From Gemmataceae bacterium (lineage in GTDB: Bacteria > Planctomycetota > Planctomycetia > Gemmatales > Gemmataceae), in NCBI GenBank assembly GCA_009692005.1, contig SHZZ01000009.1, positions 1 to 64,000 of the forward strand: a stretch of 64,000 nucleotides of DNA, in the 5' to 3' direction. The number at the start of each line of letters is the position of its first letter. Within the stretch, counting starts at the first letter, position 1. The notes beneath the pieces are model-generated. The model searched no databases, had not been told where the DNA came from, and saw only the letters and a program-made list of their open reading frames with translations. The position numbers were made by a program, and so were the translations under genes. Below, in pieces: positions 4,523 to 41,196 of the stretch.

Positions 4523-4946
4523 ATGCAAGGGCTCCTGAAATTGCCGTTCTGTTGTTGTATCGGAGTTGCCTGCGGGCAAAACAAGAAACTTAATTAAGCG
4601 GCGCGGCCTCCATCATTTCCCCCCTCCTCCAGCCCGTAGATCAGGCCATCGGCCGGACATTCCTTGGATCGTTGCGTCTTGTCGTTAACCAATCTGGCCG
4701 TGGCTGTTCCCTGGCTATCCGGCTTGAGGGTTCCCGTTTATCCCCTGGGTTGCTAGGGTTTCCTCGTTTGTCAGCGGGTGGATAAAGCTGGGGGAATAGG
4801 TATTTTTTCGGTTGAAAAAACTCGCCAAACCGGTCTTGAGATTTATTTTTGCCTCTTGCTATAGTCCCGCCCCCACGGGGCAAAAAGTCCCGGGATTACT
4901 AAGTCAAAAGCGCCTCAGAGAGAGGCGCCATCAAGGAGAGAGCTTC
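4523..4946. other. 424-base divergent intergenic region
   Basis: Lies between the minus-strand ureohydrolase and the plus-strand amidotransferase homologue. The only element I can support is the sigma-70-like promoter at 4836-4865 and the ribosome binding site AAGGAGAGAG just before 4947. Short open frames on both strands have no ribosome binding site or recognisable protein. Confidence 0.6.
4836..4865 (+). promoter_or_regulatory. sigma-70-like promoter
   Basis: TTGAGA at 4836-4841, an 18-base spacer and TATAGT at 4860-4865 form a good vegetative promoter. Transcription would start near 4872, giving a leader of about 75 bases before the ATG at 4947. This also argues against the longer in-frame start at 4812. 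Confidence 0.6.
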
Positions 4947-5705
4947 ATGACCCAGGAAAACCGGCCGTTTATTGGAATCAATCTGGATTTACTGGCCGGA
5001 GGAAAAAACCGCCAAGGGTCTTACCGCCTGGCCGCCGGGTACTGCGACGCCATTTTATCCGCCGGGGGCCTCCCCGTGCCTGTGCCAGCTTGCTCCCGTG
5101 AATCCGACCTCGACACCTATCTCGACATGCTCTCAGGATTTGTTCTCACGGGTGGAGCGGACATGGACCCCCGGCGCAACGGCCAGTGCATGCACCCGTC
5201 CGTTCGTTTGCTGGCGTCGCAGCGGGAAGAAAGCGACCGCAAGCTGGTGAAGAAGTTGCTTGCCAGGAAAATGCCCGTGCTGGGAATCGGGCTGGGCATG
5301 CAACAGATTAATGTTGCCCTGGGCGGCAGTCTCTACCTTCACTTGCCGGAAGAGATGCCAAAGTCGATGCCTCATCTGGACAATTCCGACGATTTCCACC
5401 GCCACCTGGCCTTGATCAAGCCTGGCACGCTCCTGGAGGAGATTTACGGAGGAGAGGAGTTGCTGGTGAACAGCAGCCATCACCAGGGGGTGAAAACACT
5501 GGGGAACAACCTGCGCGTTTGCGCCACCGCCCCGGACGGGGTCATTGAAGCAATTGAAACGGTGGAGGTGGGTTGGTACTTCGTCGGGGTGCAATGGCAT
5601 CCGGAAGCGGACAGCGCCACGGCGCTGGACAAACAATTATTCGAGAATTTTCTACAAGCCTCGGCAGCGCTAAGCTTGAGCCCGCCGTTGGAAATCGCCG
5701 TCTGA
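4947..5705 (+). CDS. class I glutamine amidotransferase-like protein (peptidase C26/PuuD type) lacking the nucleophile Cys
   Basis: The 252-residue protein follows the gamma-glutamyl-gamma-aminobutyrate hydrolase fold throughout: FVLTGGADMDP, then the nucleophile elbow, LNVALGG-like INVALGG, SSHHQGV and the GVQWHPEAD His/Glu segment. The elbow that normally reads GICRGMQ reads GIGLGMQ, so the catalytic Cys is Gly at residue 115, while His and Glu are kept. Hydrolysis by the usual mechanism is therefore unlikely; a binding or regulatory role is possible. Start at 4947 is set by AAGGAGAGAG upstream. An AnmK-like gene follows 19 bases after the stop. Confidence 0.85.
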   Translation: MTQENRPFIGINLDLLAGGKNRQGSYRLAAGYCDAILSAGGLPVPVPACSRESDLDTYLDMLSGFVLTGGADMDPRRNGQCMHPSVRLLASQREESDRKLVKKLLARKMPVLGIGLGMQQINVALGGSLYLHLPEEMPKSMPHLDNSDDFHRHLALIKPGTLLEEIYGGEELLVNSSHHQGVKTLGNNLRVCATAPDGVIEAIETVEVGWYFVGVQWHPEADSATALDKQLFENFLQASAALSLSPPLEIAV

Positions 5706-5724
5706 GACGGGCAAAGGAGTCCCC

Positions 5725-6888
5725 ATGAAACGCTTGTTGCTGGGATTGCATGCTGGCTGTTCCGAGGCCGGGGTTCATGGGGCGCTGGTGGAAATGGGGG
5801 TGGAAGACCAGGCACACCGGGCCCGATTTCACCTGGGAATGTTCCAGCCTTTCACGGTGGAGCTGCAAAATTGGCTTTCGCGATCAGGGGACAAGCCGCC
5901 CCGTGAGACGCGATTTTTCCCCACTGCCTGTGCAATTATTGAAGAAGAATTCAGTAAAGCGACACAGGCTGTGATGCGCGAGAGTAAACTGGGACCGGGA
6001 GGAGCGGCGGCGGCGGCCTGCGATGAATATTTCGCCGGGGCAGAGCAATCGCTGAAATTCCAGGCCTTTCAAGATTGGGGGCCGGGGTTTTCCCTGGCCA
6101 GGCAAACCGGCCTGACCGTGGCGGCCCTGCACCCTTCCAAAAATAATCAGAAAAATTCCTGCCACGATCTGCGAGACTTCCATGCTCTCCGCGCTGCAAG
6201 CCCACACGATTTCCCCTTCCTCATTTTGAACTTGGGCGGCAGCATTCGTCTGACGGCATATGTCCCGGGTCGGGAAGCGATCACCCTTCCCGAAGCCCCG
6301 TGCGGTTCGTTCCTGGAACTCTTTTCCTCGCCAGGCGGGCTGCCCTCGCCAGGGGTCGATCCGTTGGCGAAGAAAGCGGTCCAGGGAAAGTGCAAAGAGG
6401 ATCTGCTGACCCGCTGGCGGAACTTGGGCCAGGCGTGGCTGCAAGCGCCGGGAAAAAACCCGGCGGAATACCTGGCTTCCCTTTTGGGAACCGCCCCGGC
6501 CTTGGAAGCGCCTGATCTATTATGCACCGCGCATTATTTCGTGGTCGACACGATCCTGGCCATGCTGGGAAAATTGCCTAAAGAATTTTTGGAAGGGCGT
6601 TGGTTCTTGACTGGTCCCCACGGCCGCAACGGCTTGTTTCGCCAATTGCTGGCCATGGTTTTTAGCGGCAGAAAACTGGAATTGTCCGACACTTTGGGCA
6701 TACCCGCTCCTTCCTGGGATGCCTTCACTCGGGGTGTACTCGGCGGCCTGGCGCTTGGCGCCCTTGCCCCCTTGCCGGGGTATTTTCCCAGGTCCAACTC
6801 GCCCTTGGCGGCTTTCCATCCCGGCGGTCCGGTTTCCTGGTCGCGTTGCCTGGACTGGATGAATCAGGGGCTGGCCGCTTCCGCCTGA
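5725..6888 (+). CDS. degenerate AnmK-like protein (anhydro-N-acetylmuramic acid kinase homologue)
   Basis: 387 residues that can be aligned end to end with the ASKHA-fold sugar kinase AnmK. GCSEAGVHGALVEM matches the GTSLDGVDAALV start, LNLGGSIRLT matches NIGGIANIT, WFLTGPHGRNGLFRQL matches the CGGGAHNPTLM segment, and SDTLGIPAPSWDAFTRGVL matches the TDELGIPPDAKEALAFAVL segment. Residues needed for catalysis are missing: the Asp of GTSLDG, the DFR catalytic Asp, the AAGGQGAP loop and DTGPGN. It is probably a pseudoenzyme or has a changed function. It likely shares a transcript with the upstream amidotransferase homologue, which has also lost its catalytic residue. Confidence 0.7.
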   Translation: MKRLLLGLHAGCSEAGVHGALVEMGVEDQAHRARFHLGMFQPFTVELQNWLSRSGDKPPRETRFFPTACAIIEEEFSKATQAVMRESKLGPGGAAAAACDEYFAGAEQSLKFQAFQDWGPGFSLARQTGLTVAALHPSKNNQKNSCHDLRDFHALRAASPHDFPFLILNLGGSIRLTAYVPGREAITLPEAPCGSFLELFSSPGGLPSPGVDPLAKKAVQGKCKEDLLTRWRNLGQAWLQAPGKNPAEYLASLLGTAPALEAPDLLCTAHYFVVDTILAMLGKLPKEFLEGRWFLTGPHGRNGLFRQLLAMVFSGRKLELSDTLGIPAPSWDAFTRGVLGGLALGALAPLPGYFPRSNSPLAAFHPGGPVSWSRCLDWMNQGLAASA

Positions 6889-21913: not shown

Positions 21914-22477
21914 CTAGTTGCCGGTGGCGTCTTTCATGAAGGACTTCTGCAATTCCGGCGAGGGCGCGTAAAGGTGAAGGTGGTCTTTATCAATGTAAAC
22001 CACCTGCACGCTGGGGCGCTCAATCTTCACTGGGAACGGGTAACCCGACTCAATTACTTCGTTGTAATAAATCGTGCATTTCCAATGGCAGTGGTGCAGT
22101 TGAGCCGGCCCGATCAAAGGATAAAAGCGCGGCGGATCGATTTTATCAACCAGCCGTTCGGTGGAAATGATTATGTCCTCGCGGTGTTCCTCGTAGACAT
22201 AAGGAATGCCACGGGCCACGCGGGGCATTGCCCGCAAGATCTGGGCTTCATCCGGGGCGTCCTCGCACAGCGGCGCCTGGGTCCCTTCCCGAATGGGCGG
22301 CATGATTGGCGTGCGGTGATCGTTCTTGTGGGTGTATTTGTCTTCCATCCGGTCGGTGACCCAGGGGGGCACCAGAATGGGGGTGGCCAGGCCCATAGAA
22401 AAGGGCATGCAACCCGAAGCCGTAAAGGAAAAGGCCGCCATGATTCCGCCGAGAATCCATTCTCGTTTTTTGATCAT
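21914..22477 (-). CDS. lipoprotein of unknown function
   Basis: 187 residues from the ATG at 22477, placed 7 bases after AAAGG; ATG 22483 and GTG 22486 are alternatives. MIKKREWILGGIMAAFSFTASGC is a lipoprotein signal with lipobox TASGC. The mature part is rich in Pro, His and Tyr, with a conserved-looking core around GIPYVYEEHREDIIISTERLVDKIDPPRF and HHCHWKCTIYYNEVIESGYP. I do not recognise the family. It lies 53 bases upstream of the BON-like protein on the same strand, suggesting a joint envelope role. Confidence 0.75.
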   Translation of the reverse strand: MIKKREWILGGIMAAFSFTASGCMPFSMGLATPILVPPWVTDRMEDKYTHKNDHRTPIMPPIREGTQAPLCEDAPDEAQILRAMPRVARGIPYVYEEHREDIIISTERLVDKIDPPRFYPLIGPAQLHHCHWKCTIYYNEVIESGYPFPVKIERPSVQVVYIDKDHLHLYAPSPELQKSFMKDATGN

Positions 22478-22536
22478 TTCCATCACCTTTCATGAAACAA
22501 AGATCCTGCGGGCTCCCGTGTAAACCCGGCCATGCC

Positions 22537-22696: not shown

Positions 22697-23236
22697 ATGA
22701 ACCCTTTAAACATGAAGCTTTTCGATAGAGAAGGAACCCAGGTGGATCTCCACGGTTTGGGGAAGCCGCCTTATTTGCTAATTTTGACCAGGCATTTAGG
22801 ATGAATACCTTGCCTGGCGCACCTCGTGGAGGTGCAAAAAGTCTGGGCGAAGTTTCAGGAACTGCCTGGCACGGTGGCGGGAATATCTTTTGCCCAACCT
22901 GCCATCGCCTGGGAAACCGCCAAGAAAATGCAACTTTCCTTTCCCCTGCTCTCCGACCCTGAAAAATCTTTCTACAGGTATTTCAACTTGGCTTCGGCCA
23001 ACTGGGGGAATTTTCTCCGCCCGGAGGTTTTGCTGGGCTATTTATCCCGGATTGTCCAAGGGTGGATGCCTTTGAAACCTCGCCAGGGGGATGACATATT
23101 TCAATTGGGGGGAGATTTTATTTTGAATGGCGCTGGGGAAACCGTATTTGCCTTCCGCAGTGAAACGCCGGTTCACCGGCCAAACAACCGCGTCTTGCTA
23201 AAGGAGTTCGCGACCGCCGTGAATAAAGAGAAATAA
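22697..23236 (+). CDS. PRXL2/SelU-like peroxiredoxin, probable selenoprotein (UGA = Sec36)
   Basis: AhpC/TSA_2-type thioredoxin-fold protein, 179 residues if the in-frame TGA at 22802-22804 is read as selenocysteine. Coding similarity is continuous across it: upstream PPYLLILTRHLG, then U36-I-P-C39, then LAHLVEVQKVW, followed by SFPLLSDPEKSFYRYFNL and DIFQLGGDFILNGAGETVFAFRS, all typical of the family. Homologues have CxxC or, in vertebrate SelU, UxxC at this spot. A perfect 7-bp hairpin lies 14 bases downstream of the TGA. ATG 22697 has AAGG upstream. If not recoded, this is a nonsense-interrupted pseudogene; the exact match with the catalytic position favours Sec. No selA/selB/selC gene is in the window. 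Confidence 0.75.
22819..22835 (+). promoter_or_regulatory. bacterial SECIS-like hairpin
   Basis: GCACCTC (22819-22825) pairs perfectly with GAGGTGC (22829-22835) around a GTG loop. The loop starts 21 bases after the TGA and its first base is G, which fits the usual bacterial SECIS rule of an apical loop with an early G about 16-37 bases downstream. Confidence 0.6.
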
Positions 23237-23360: not shown

Positions 23361-23546
23361 TTATTCTTCGTCGTCTTCGTCAATGATCTCGATGCCCCGG
23401 CTTTCCAGCATTTCCATGACTTTGTCCAGCCGCTGGGGGTCGGCCTGGTTTTCCTTCAACACCAAATAGACATCGTTGAAGGTGACAAAACCCTTTTTTT
23501 TCCCCAAAGTAACCAGGGTTTCAACCGCATCCTGCACGCCTAACAT
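23361..23546 (-). CDS. stand-alone sigma-70 region 1.1 domain protein
   Basis: 61 residues from the ATG at 23546, preceded by GGAGAGAG. The sequence (VETLVTLGKKKGFVTFNDV, LVLKENQADPQRLDKVMEMLESRGIEIID) is a complete region 1.1 of housekeeping sigma factors, the autoinhibitory domain that blocks the DNA channel, ending in the acidic tail DEDDEE. No other sigma region follows; the frame ends in a stop. A free region 1.1 could compete for the RNA polymerase channel or modulate a sigma factor. It is transcribed away from the ECF sigma gene that starts 126 bases to the right. Longer starts (to 23636) have no support. Confidence 0.75.
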   Translation of the reverse strand: MLGVQDAVETLVTLGKKKGFVTFNDVYLVLKENQADPQRLDKVMEMLESRGIEIIDEDDEE

Positions 23547-23672
23547 GGCACTCTCTCCGGGGCCGCCGACAATAACGCCGGTTTTTTGTATTATACCCAA
23601 CCCAAGGGCAAGAACCAAACTTTTCCAGGCTGGCACTTCCTTCTTGTGAAGCGCCCGACCGGGCGGTAGGTT

Positions 23673-24326
23673 ATGGCTGCCGGGGAAAAACCGCCCGCAA
23701 AACCTGTCAAACTTTATCCCCAGTCAATCGTCTTGGAAGCGGCAAACATGAAGAAAGGATTTTCCAAGGCCGGGGCTAATCATCAACCGGAGCCGTTGGG
23801 GGGAAATACTGCCTCCGCGCCCGGCGACAGCTTAGTCTCCGCCTTCACGGAATTCCGCGATGAGCTGGTCAGCACCCTTCTTTACCTCTTGGGCAACCGC
23901 GAAGACGCACAAGAGATGGCCCAGGAAGCGTTTTTACGCTGCTGGAAAAAAAAGGATGATATCGGCCAGATCATCAACATCAAGGCCTGGGTCTTCCGCA
24001 TTGCGCTCAACGCTTCCAAGGATCTTAAGCGCAGCGCCTGGAAGAGAAAGTCCCGCGCCTTTCCCGAGGAGGAGATCATGAAGGAATACCGCACCGCCAG
24101 CCCCCTCGACCAGGTGGAAGACAAGGAGTCCCTCGACCTGATCCGCAAGGCCATGATGGACCTGCGGCCGGAAGAGAAGGAAGTCTTCCTCCTGAGGGAG
24201 AACGGCGAAATGACCTATGAACAAATCGCAGAGCATTCCCACCGGCCGGTGGGAACGGTGAAAACGCAGATGCGGTCGGCGTTGCAGAAATTGCGGGAAG
24301 CATTAATCCCAGCGGGCCAGAGTTAA
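23673..24326 (+). CDS. ECF-type RNA polymerase sigma factor
   Basis: 217 residues. Region 2 is DELVSTLLYLLGNREDAQEMAQEAFLRCWKK and region 4 is DLRPEEKEVFLLRENGEMTYEQIAEHSHRPVGTVKTQMRSALQKLR, with its helix-turn-helix. The first 50 or so residues are a poorly conserved extension; an alternative ATG at 23748 would shorten it by 25. It ends 24 bases before a gene whose N-terminus is a zinc anti-sigma domain, so the pair is very probably a sigma/anti-sigma unit in one transcript. Directs RNA polymerase to an unknown regulon. Confidence 0.92.
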   Translation: MAAGEKPPAKPVKLYPQSIVLEAANMKKGFSKAGANHQPEPLGGNTASAPGDSLVSAFTEFRDELVSTLLYLLGNREDAQEMAQEAFLRCWKKKDDIGQIINIKAWVFRIALNASKDLKRSAWKRKSRAFPEEEIMKEYRTASPLDQVEDKESLDLIRKAMMDLRPEEKEVFLLRENGEMTYEQIAEHSHRPVGTVKTQMRSALQKLREALIPAGQS

Positions 24327-40353: not shown

Positions 40354-41196
40354 ATGTTCTTTTCTTCCTTTGATTATTCGATTCCGTTGTTAACCACCAG
40401 CAATCTGACCAAGGAGGGAAAATGCAGGTCATGCGGCTTTGTCCTAACCGGTTTCTTGGCCCTTTTCTCATTTACTGGCTCGCTGATGGCCCAGGAAGCG
40501 GGTTTCACCCATTTAACCGGAAGAATTATTTTTCAAGGGGATCCGCTTCCTCAACGAAAACCGTTCGAGGTCAACCGTGATAAAGAATGCTGCTTGCGCG
40601 GAGGGGAAATCCTGACAGACAATTGAGTGGTGAATCCGAAAAACCGAGGCGTGGGGTGGGTCATGGTCTGGCTGGAACCCGACCCGGCCAGCGACATAAA
40701 ATTGTTGCCGGTTTTTCCCGGGATGGCCAAACTCAGGGAGGAAACGGTTTTCCTCGAAATTCAAATCTGTAGGTTTCAGCCACACATGATGGCTCTGAGA
40801 GAAGGTCAGCTTCTCAAGGTTCGCAATCACGATCCTGTGCCGCACGCGGTACAGTGGGACGCCAATTTAGTGGTGAACCATCCAGGGGCAATGCTGGTCC
40901 CCGCAGGTGAAGTGATTAAAATATCACTCAAATCTCAGCCGTTGCCCGTGATAATGAAATGCCCTATTCACCCCTGGATGCGAAGCTGGGTGTGGGTGTT
41001 TTCGCATCCTTATTTTGCCATCACCGGCCCCGATGGCCGGTTCGAGATTCCTCATGCGCCGGTGGGGATCTGGCGCCTGCGAGTTTGGCACGAAGAGACC
41101 GGTTGGCGCGGGGGCAAAGCAGGGAAGTACGGCCAGGCAATTCATCTTCTTCCAGGAAAACCAACCGACCTGGGCGACTTGGTTCTCAACCCCTAA
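40354..41196 (+). pseudogene. cupredoxin/carboxypeptidase-regulatory-like exported protein interrupted by in-frame TGA
   Basis: A single frame of 281 codons from ATG 40354 (AAGGAGG upstream) to the stop at 41194-41196, broken by TGA at 40624-40626. The first half has a signal-like stretch (FVLTGFLALFSFTGSLMAQE) and GRIIFQGDPLPQRKPFEVNRDKECC; the second half has VVNPKNRGVGWVMVWLEPDP, NHDPVPHAVQWDAN, MKCPIHPWMRSWVWVFSHPYFAITGPDGRFEIP and PVGIWRLRVWHE. This is a planctomycete exported family with a cupredoxin-like copper-site look and a CarboxypepD_reg-like end. The TGA falls just before VVNPKN, where relatives, as I recall, have Trp, so TGG to TGA is likely. No SECIS-like hairpin follows. Confidence 0.7.

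Follow-up and report, generated by a model that had tools for sequence, protein, structure and literature searches.

The window analysed here is a 64,000-nucleotide stretch of the genome of a Gemmataceae bacterium. On its forward strand, a frame of 179 codons extends from an ATG at 22697 to a TAA ending at 23236, and translation showed that it is interrupted only once, by a TGA at codon 36 (22802-22804) in the context TRHLG-U-IPC, without other damage to the frame. This agrees with the preliminary description of the locus, which had reported a single frame broken by one TGA and had placed this TGA at the first position of a CxxC-type motif. The same description matched the sequence before and after the TGA to one fold without a gap; that the two sides form a single protein is borne out by a match to NF040769 ('SelL-related redox protein') which covers residues 5-170 in a single stretch (144 bits versus a cut-off of 120). 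The features of the locus are collected in Table 1.

Table 1. Features of the locus, with positions in the window
Feature	Position	Strand	Basis or remarks
CDS, proposed Sec-containing SelL-related / AhpC-TSA_2 redox protein	22697..23236	+	179 aa with Sec36, stop TAA; frame, domain matches, synteny with L072/L073/L075
In-frame TGA, read as Sec36, first residue of UxxC	22802..22804	+	frame and column conservation
TGC, Cys39, likely resolving partner of Sec36	22811..22813	+	invariant in 29 sequences; TGA in three Chloroflexi relatives
Putative apical hairpin of a bacterial SECIS, GCACCTC-GTG-GAGGTGC	22819..22835	+	7 bp, GUG loop; fold, pairing, synonymous shuffles
Extended predicted SECIS stem-loop, including lower stem	22802..22857	+	lower stem predicted for own sequence only
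Lipoprotein-like ORF, syntenic neighbour, not part of the mechanism	21914..22486	-	common to nearest relatives
ECF-type sigma factor, syntenic neighbour, not part of the mechanism	23673..24326	+	Sigma70_r2, r4_2

The ATG at 22697 is the probable start codon; an ATG is found at an equal distance in the nearest relatives of the gene, and no strong Shine-Dalgarno sequence was found before it. Because no signal peptide was apparent by eye, the 179-aa protein is probably cytosolic. The gene lies in the order MutY/NUDIX-type gene, TlpA-like thioredoxin gene, large minus-strand ORF (with a BON domain in the window), lipoprotein-like ORF, TGA-containing gene and ECF sigma factor gene. This order is common to the loci L072, L073 and L075, which are thus orthologues in place. 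Beside the sigma factor gene, the minus strand of the window (23361-23636) encodes a free-standing 91-aa protein with only a sigma-70 region 1.1 domain (56 bits). Two other TGA-joined frames in the window were searched for homology across the TGA, and none was found: in the frame at 4812-5906 the domain match ends before the TGA, and the frames of 90 and 189 codons at 40354-41196 (+), joined by one TGA, gave no Pfam match and are probably two adjacent ORFs.

Besides NF040769, the protein matched PF13911 (AhpC-TSA_2; residues 76-156, 42.8 bits versus a cut-off of 27) and PF00578 (residues 5-107), and its scores of 13-16 bits against the curated NCBIfam models of PrxQ/Bcp were far below their cut-offs of 140-261. 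The Sec, Cys and UxxU relatives that were tested also pass the NF040769 cut-off, except L051 (116 bits), and nothing was found that sets the protein studied here apart from this family. A search of the PDB by sequence returned nothing significant. The AlphaFold model (pLDDT 96.4, pTM 0.91, from an alignment only 29 rows deep) predicts with confidence a peroxiredoxin/thioredoxin fold in which residue 36 directly precedes a helix (37-48). The closest solved structure to the model is human prostamide/PGF synthase (PRXL2B, 9usa; Z 19.7 over 157 residues, identity 14%), followed by Bcp/PrxQ proteins (Z 17-18), and ResA was also among the structural matches. Going by residue numbers and the range of the alignment, C44 and C47 of the human protein would correspond to residues 36 and 39 here. 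The invariant positions in the alignment are R32, H33, 36, C39, H42, L43, D87, L98, G139, R161 and P162.

Homologues were detected in 59 of the 99 related genomes searched, and nearly all good ones of the same family carry one TGA. Column 36 is TGA in 29 of the 30 best sequences, which comprise the gene itself and its 29 next-best relatives (28 with TGA); the exception, L034, has TGC. A scan of named genome contigs added 80 loci, from Gemmataceae, other Planctomycetota, Deltaproteobacteria/Myxococcota, Chloroflexota, Acidimicrobiia and a few others; no homologue was found on plasmids. In the 97 non-redundant relatives that have the site, column 36 is TGA in 80 and Cys in 17 (L034, L051, L117 and L052-L065), proportions that are not an unbiased census, because the motif used for the contig scan was drawn from a Sec-rich alignment; L126, in which the site codon is not alignable, was left out of the counts. 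The alignment thus shows Sec or Cys at the column of residue 36, that is, an in-frame UGA within a conserved frame and Cys homologues in the same column, as expected of a selenoprotein. A nonsense mutation, whether real, in a pseudogene, or introduced by a sequencing error, could also place a TGA here, given that the window belongs to an assembly of 99 contigs and that a single substitution separates TGA from TGC, TGT and TGG. However, the codon is shared by relatives from several phyla and by the three syntenic orthologues, and the frame is otherwise undamaged; its conservation in effect refutes this explanation, which we regard as highly improbable.

The genome (4.19 Mb in 99 contigs, 100% complete) encodes all four components of the selenocysteine pathway for which it was searched. 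The selA and selB genes adjoin each other on contig C84, a tRNA-Sec with the anticodon TCA scored 65 bits, over the gathering score, and selD is located on contig C47 (7588-8517, minus strand; L019). The selenophosphate synthetase gene is itself a selenoprotein gene, with an in-frame TGA at the usual Sec site (CAGUAGK), an independent sign that TGA is decoded as Sec in this genome. Furthermore, selB scored above the cut-off in 28 of the 34 TGA-form genomes versus 1 of the 15 that have only the Cys form (Fisher p 7e-7, a significance inflated by the relatedness of the genomes), and in 26 of 28 versus 1 of 13 when only genomes at least 90% complete were considered. Of the six TGA-form genomes without selB above the cut-off, four carry selA, and the remaining two have a completeness of 79-88%. 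These observations bear on whether TGA could be read as Trp, Cys or Arg, through suppression or an altered code, rather than as Sec. Any sense decoding would keep the frame open; however, Cys is the only alternative that relatives show at the redox site, tRNA-Sec, selA, selB and selD are all present, and the TGA form tracks with selB, so that we give this possibility next to no weight.

The preliminary description had also noted a perfect 7-bp hairpin with a GTG loop downstream of the TGA, and the hairpin was recovered at exactly these positions (22819-22835). Its loop (22826-22828) starts 21 nt after the TGA, in accordance with the bacterial SECIS pattern of an early loop G at about 16-37 nt from the UGA. 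For the 59 nt from the TGA onwards, the folding energy is -23 kcal/mol (z -2.75 versus dinucleotide shuffles). Over 30 sequences, 90.5% of the cells for the seven pairs remain paired, as opposed to 34-54% for slid controls, and cells changed on both sides number 19 versus a shuffled mean of 7.2 (0 of 500 shuffles). In L038, L039 and L050, a compensatory swap converts CTC..GAG into CTG..CAG, the closing C-G pair becoming G-C at the cost of a Glu to Gln replacement. When synonymous codons were redrawn from each gene with the protein kept fixed, the best apical stem with a loop G shortened from 6.46 to 4.85 bp in Sec genes, whereas in Cys genes it hardly differed (3.82 versus 3.75 bp). A stem of at least 5 bp with a loop G located 14-34 nt after the TGA is present in 94% of Sec genes versus 29% of Cys genes. 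The sequences behind these stem and pairing counts are related, and the events are therefore not independent. The distinction between Sec and Cys genes is weak by general MFE z-scores (p 0.024) and clearer by the apical-stem count.

Taken with its conservation and covariation, these comparisons indicate that the hairpin is under selection, although the protein accounts for part of the pairing, since the hairpin bases are also constrained by the encoded HLGEV/HLVEV. In the three nearest orthologues (L022-L024), the Sec TGA is present without this exact stem, of which they form 3 of 6 pairs; their insertion signal or hairpin must therefore differ. Rfam gave only chance-level matches at the hairpin, and a search with RF00031 (SECIS_1) yielded no match in the genome; the latter result is uninformative, because the controls were silent as well. 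The hairpin also bears on the possibility that the TGA is a true stop followed by a restart, so that a 136-aa protein would be made besides a short peptide from the upstream part. An ORF with a GTG start does exist at 22826-23236, but this GTG is the hairpin loop, the same domain has a beta strand and its conserved RH motif within the first 35 codons, and Cys relatives such as L034 read straight through the site. A restart thus appears very unlikely. Gene finders without Sec rules would cut the gene at residue 35 or begin it at GTG 22826, and a redox enzyme and its active site would therefore be missing from planctomycete annotations.

Thus, the machinery, the Sec/Cys column and the covarying hairpin support the insertion of Sec proposed earlier, and we consider it very probable, on sequence evidence, that Sec is inserted at TGA 22802 into a peroxiredoxin-like redox protein. 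By analogy with established bacterial Sec insertion, and consistent with the covariation, SelB carrying Sec-tRNA(Sec) would bind the hairpin at 22819-22835 and decode the TGA as Sec. The UxxC motif and the fold suggest a redox cycle in which the selenolate of Sec36, at the N-terminus of the long helix and beside the invariant Arg32 and His33, would attack a peroxide or a disulfide. Cys39 would then resolve the oxidised selenium as a selenenylsulfide, and a cellular thiol reductant, such as thioredoxin or a TlpA-like protein, would reduce the Sec36-Cys39 bond.

Selenoproteins of this kind are already known, and the gene described here adds a well-supported member to a family curated by NCBI as NF040769, published relatives including UxxC peroxiredoxin-like and AhpC-TSA_2 selenoproteins. 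SelL of fish and other aquatic organisms contains two Sec two residues apart, served by one SECIS (PMC3316567, PMC2398784). Like SelL, the present protein is peroxiredoxin-like and has Sec at the first motif position, but it has a UxxC motif rather than the UxxU of SelL proper, a single Sec and a bacterial hairpin within the coding region. The UxxU motif, with two in-frame TGA as in animal SelL, was observed only in three Chloroflexi MAGs (L119, L138 and L148). The likeness to PRXL2/SelU asserted in the preliminary description holds at the level of the Pfam domain (AhpC-TSA_2, above the cut-off), the fold and the C44/C47 motif of human prostamide/PGF synthase rather than at that of orthology, with an identity of only 14%; the closest curated family is NF040769. 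The 'AhpC/TSA family protein' selenoprotein (PF13911/cd02970; PMC9312934, PMC13188914) has the Pfam domain in common with it and likewise begins its motif with Sec, but this motif is UxxS. The peroxiredoxin-like thiol:disulfide oxidoreductase selenoprotein (PMC1794560, PMC9312934) has a similar fold and UxxC in common with our protein; it is listed under another Pfam domain, PF00578, and is likened here by description. Other planctomycetes are known to have selenoproteins (PMC4807772). Our literature search, with most subscription journals outside its coverage, found little on planctomycete selenoproteins and no paper on this gene or on planctomycete SelL-related proteins.

As to the chemistry, we lean moderately towards a peroxidase rather than a disulfide reductase, and peroxide defence is the likely role; in some Gemmataceae relatives, the gene adjoins one for a di-haem cytochrome c peroxidase. 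A plausible, if less favoured, possibility is that the Sec protein is a thiol-disulfide oxidoreductase or an endoperoxide-type reductase like prostamide/PGF synthase. The UxxC spacing is that of thioredoxin-like oxidoreductases, the closest fold is the human synthase, of which the double mutant is C44S/C47S, and the structural matches include ResA; on the other hand, the fold match to the PrxQ/Bcp peroxidases is nearly as good, and the di-haem peroxidase family gene adjoins the Sec gene in several relatives. Genes of this family were found in the flanks of 11 other loci, as judged by Pfam for the one on which it was run, L092, and they fit a peroxide-handling role without proving it. In several planctomycete relatives, the di-haem peroxidase gene is directly downstream (L092, at 4681-6165; L103; L107).

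A tree built after removal of the two motif columns places Cys beside Sec in the sister pairs L034/L035 and L049/L051, and most Cys forms fall within one distant clade. At least 4 changes are needed to account for the Cys label and at least 2 for UxxU. Close relatives usually have Sec, and Sec and Cys swap between sister Gemmataceae; for these shallow pairs only, the root of the tree not being known, a direction of change may be suggested from the sequences. The pairs L035/L034 and L049/L051 (Sec/Cys) offer a clean natural test of the contribution of selenium. It is conceivable, though we hold it rather doubtful, that Sec is ancestral in the SelL-related clade and usual across Planctomycetota, Myxococcota, Chloroflexota and Actinomycetota, with Cys arising mostly by loss of Sec and UxxU more than once. 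If so, the Sec proteins SelL and SelU of eukaryotes could have originated from this bacterial pool. In Anaerolineae (L127, L128, L129, L141, L142 and L145), genes for a tryptophan-halogenase-like flavoprotein and a CDP-alcohol phosphatidyltransferase precede the Sec gene on the same strand, and at some of these loci genes for a VTT-domain protein and a pyridine nucleotide-disulphide oxidoreductase are located nearby.
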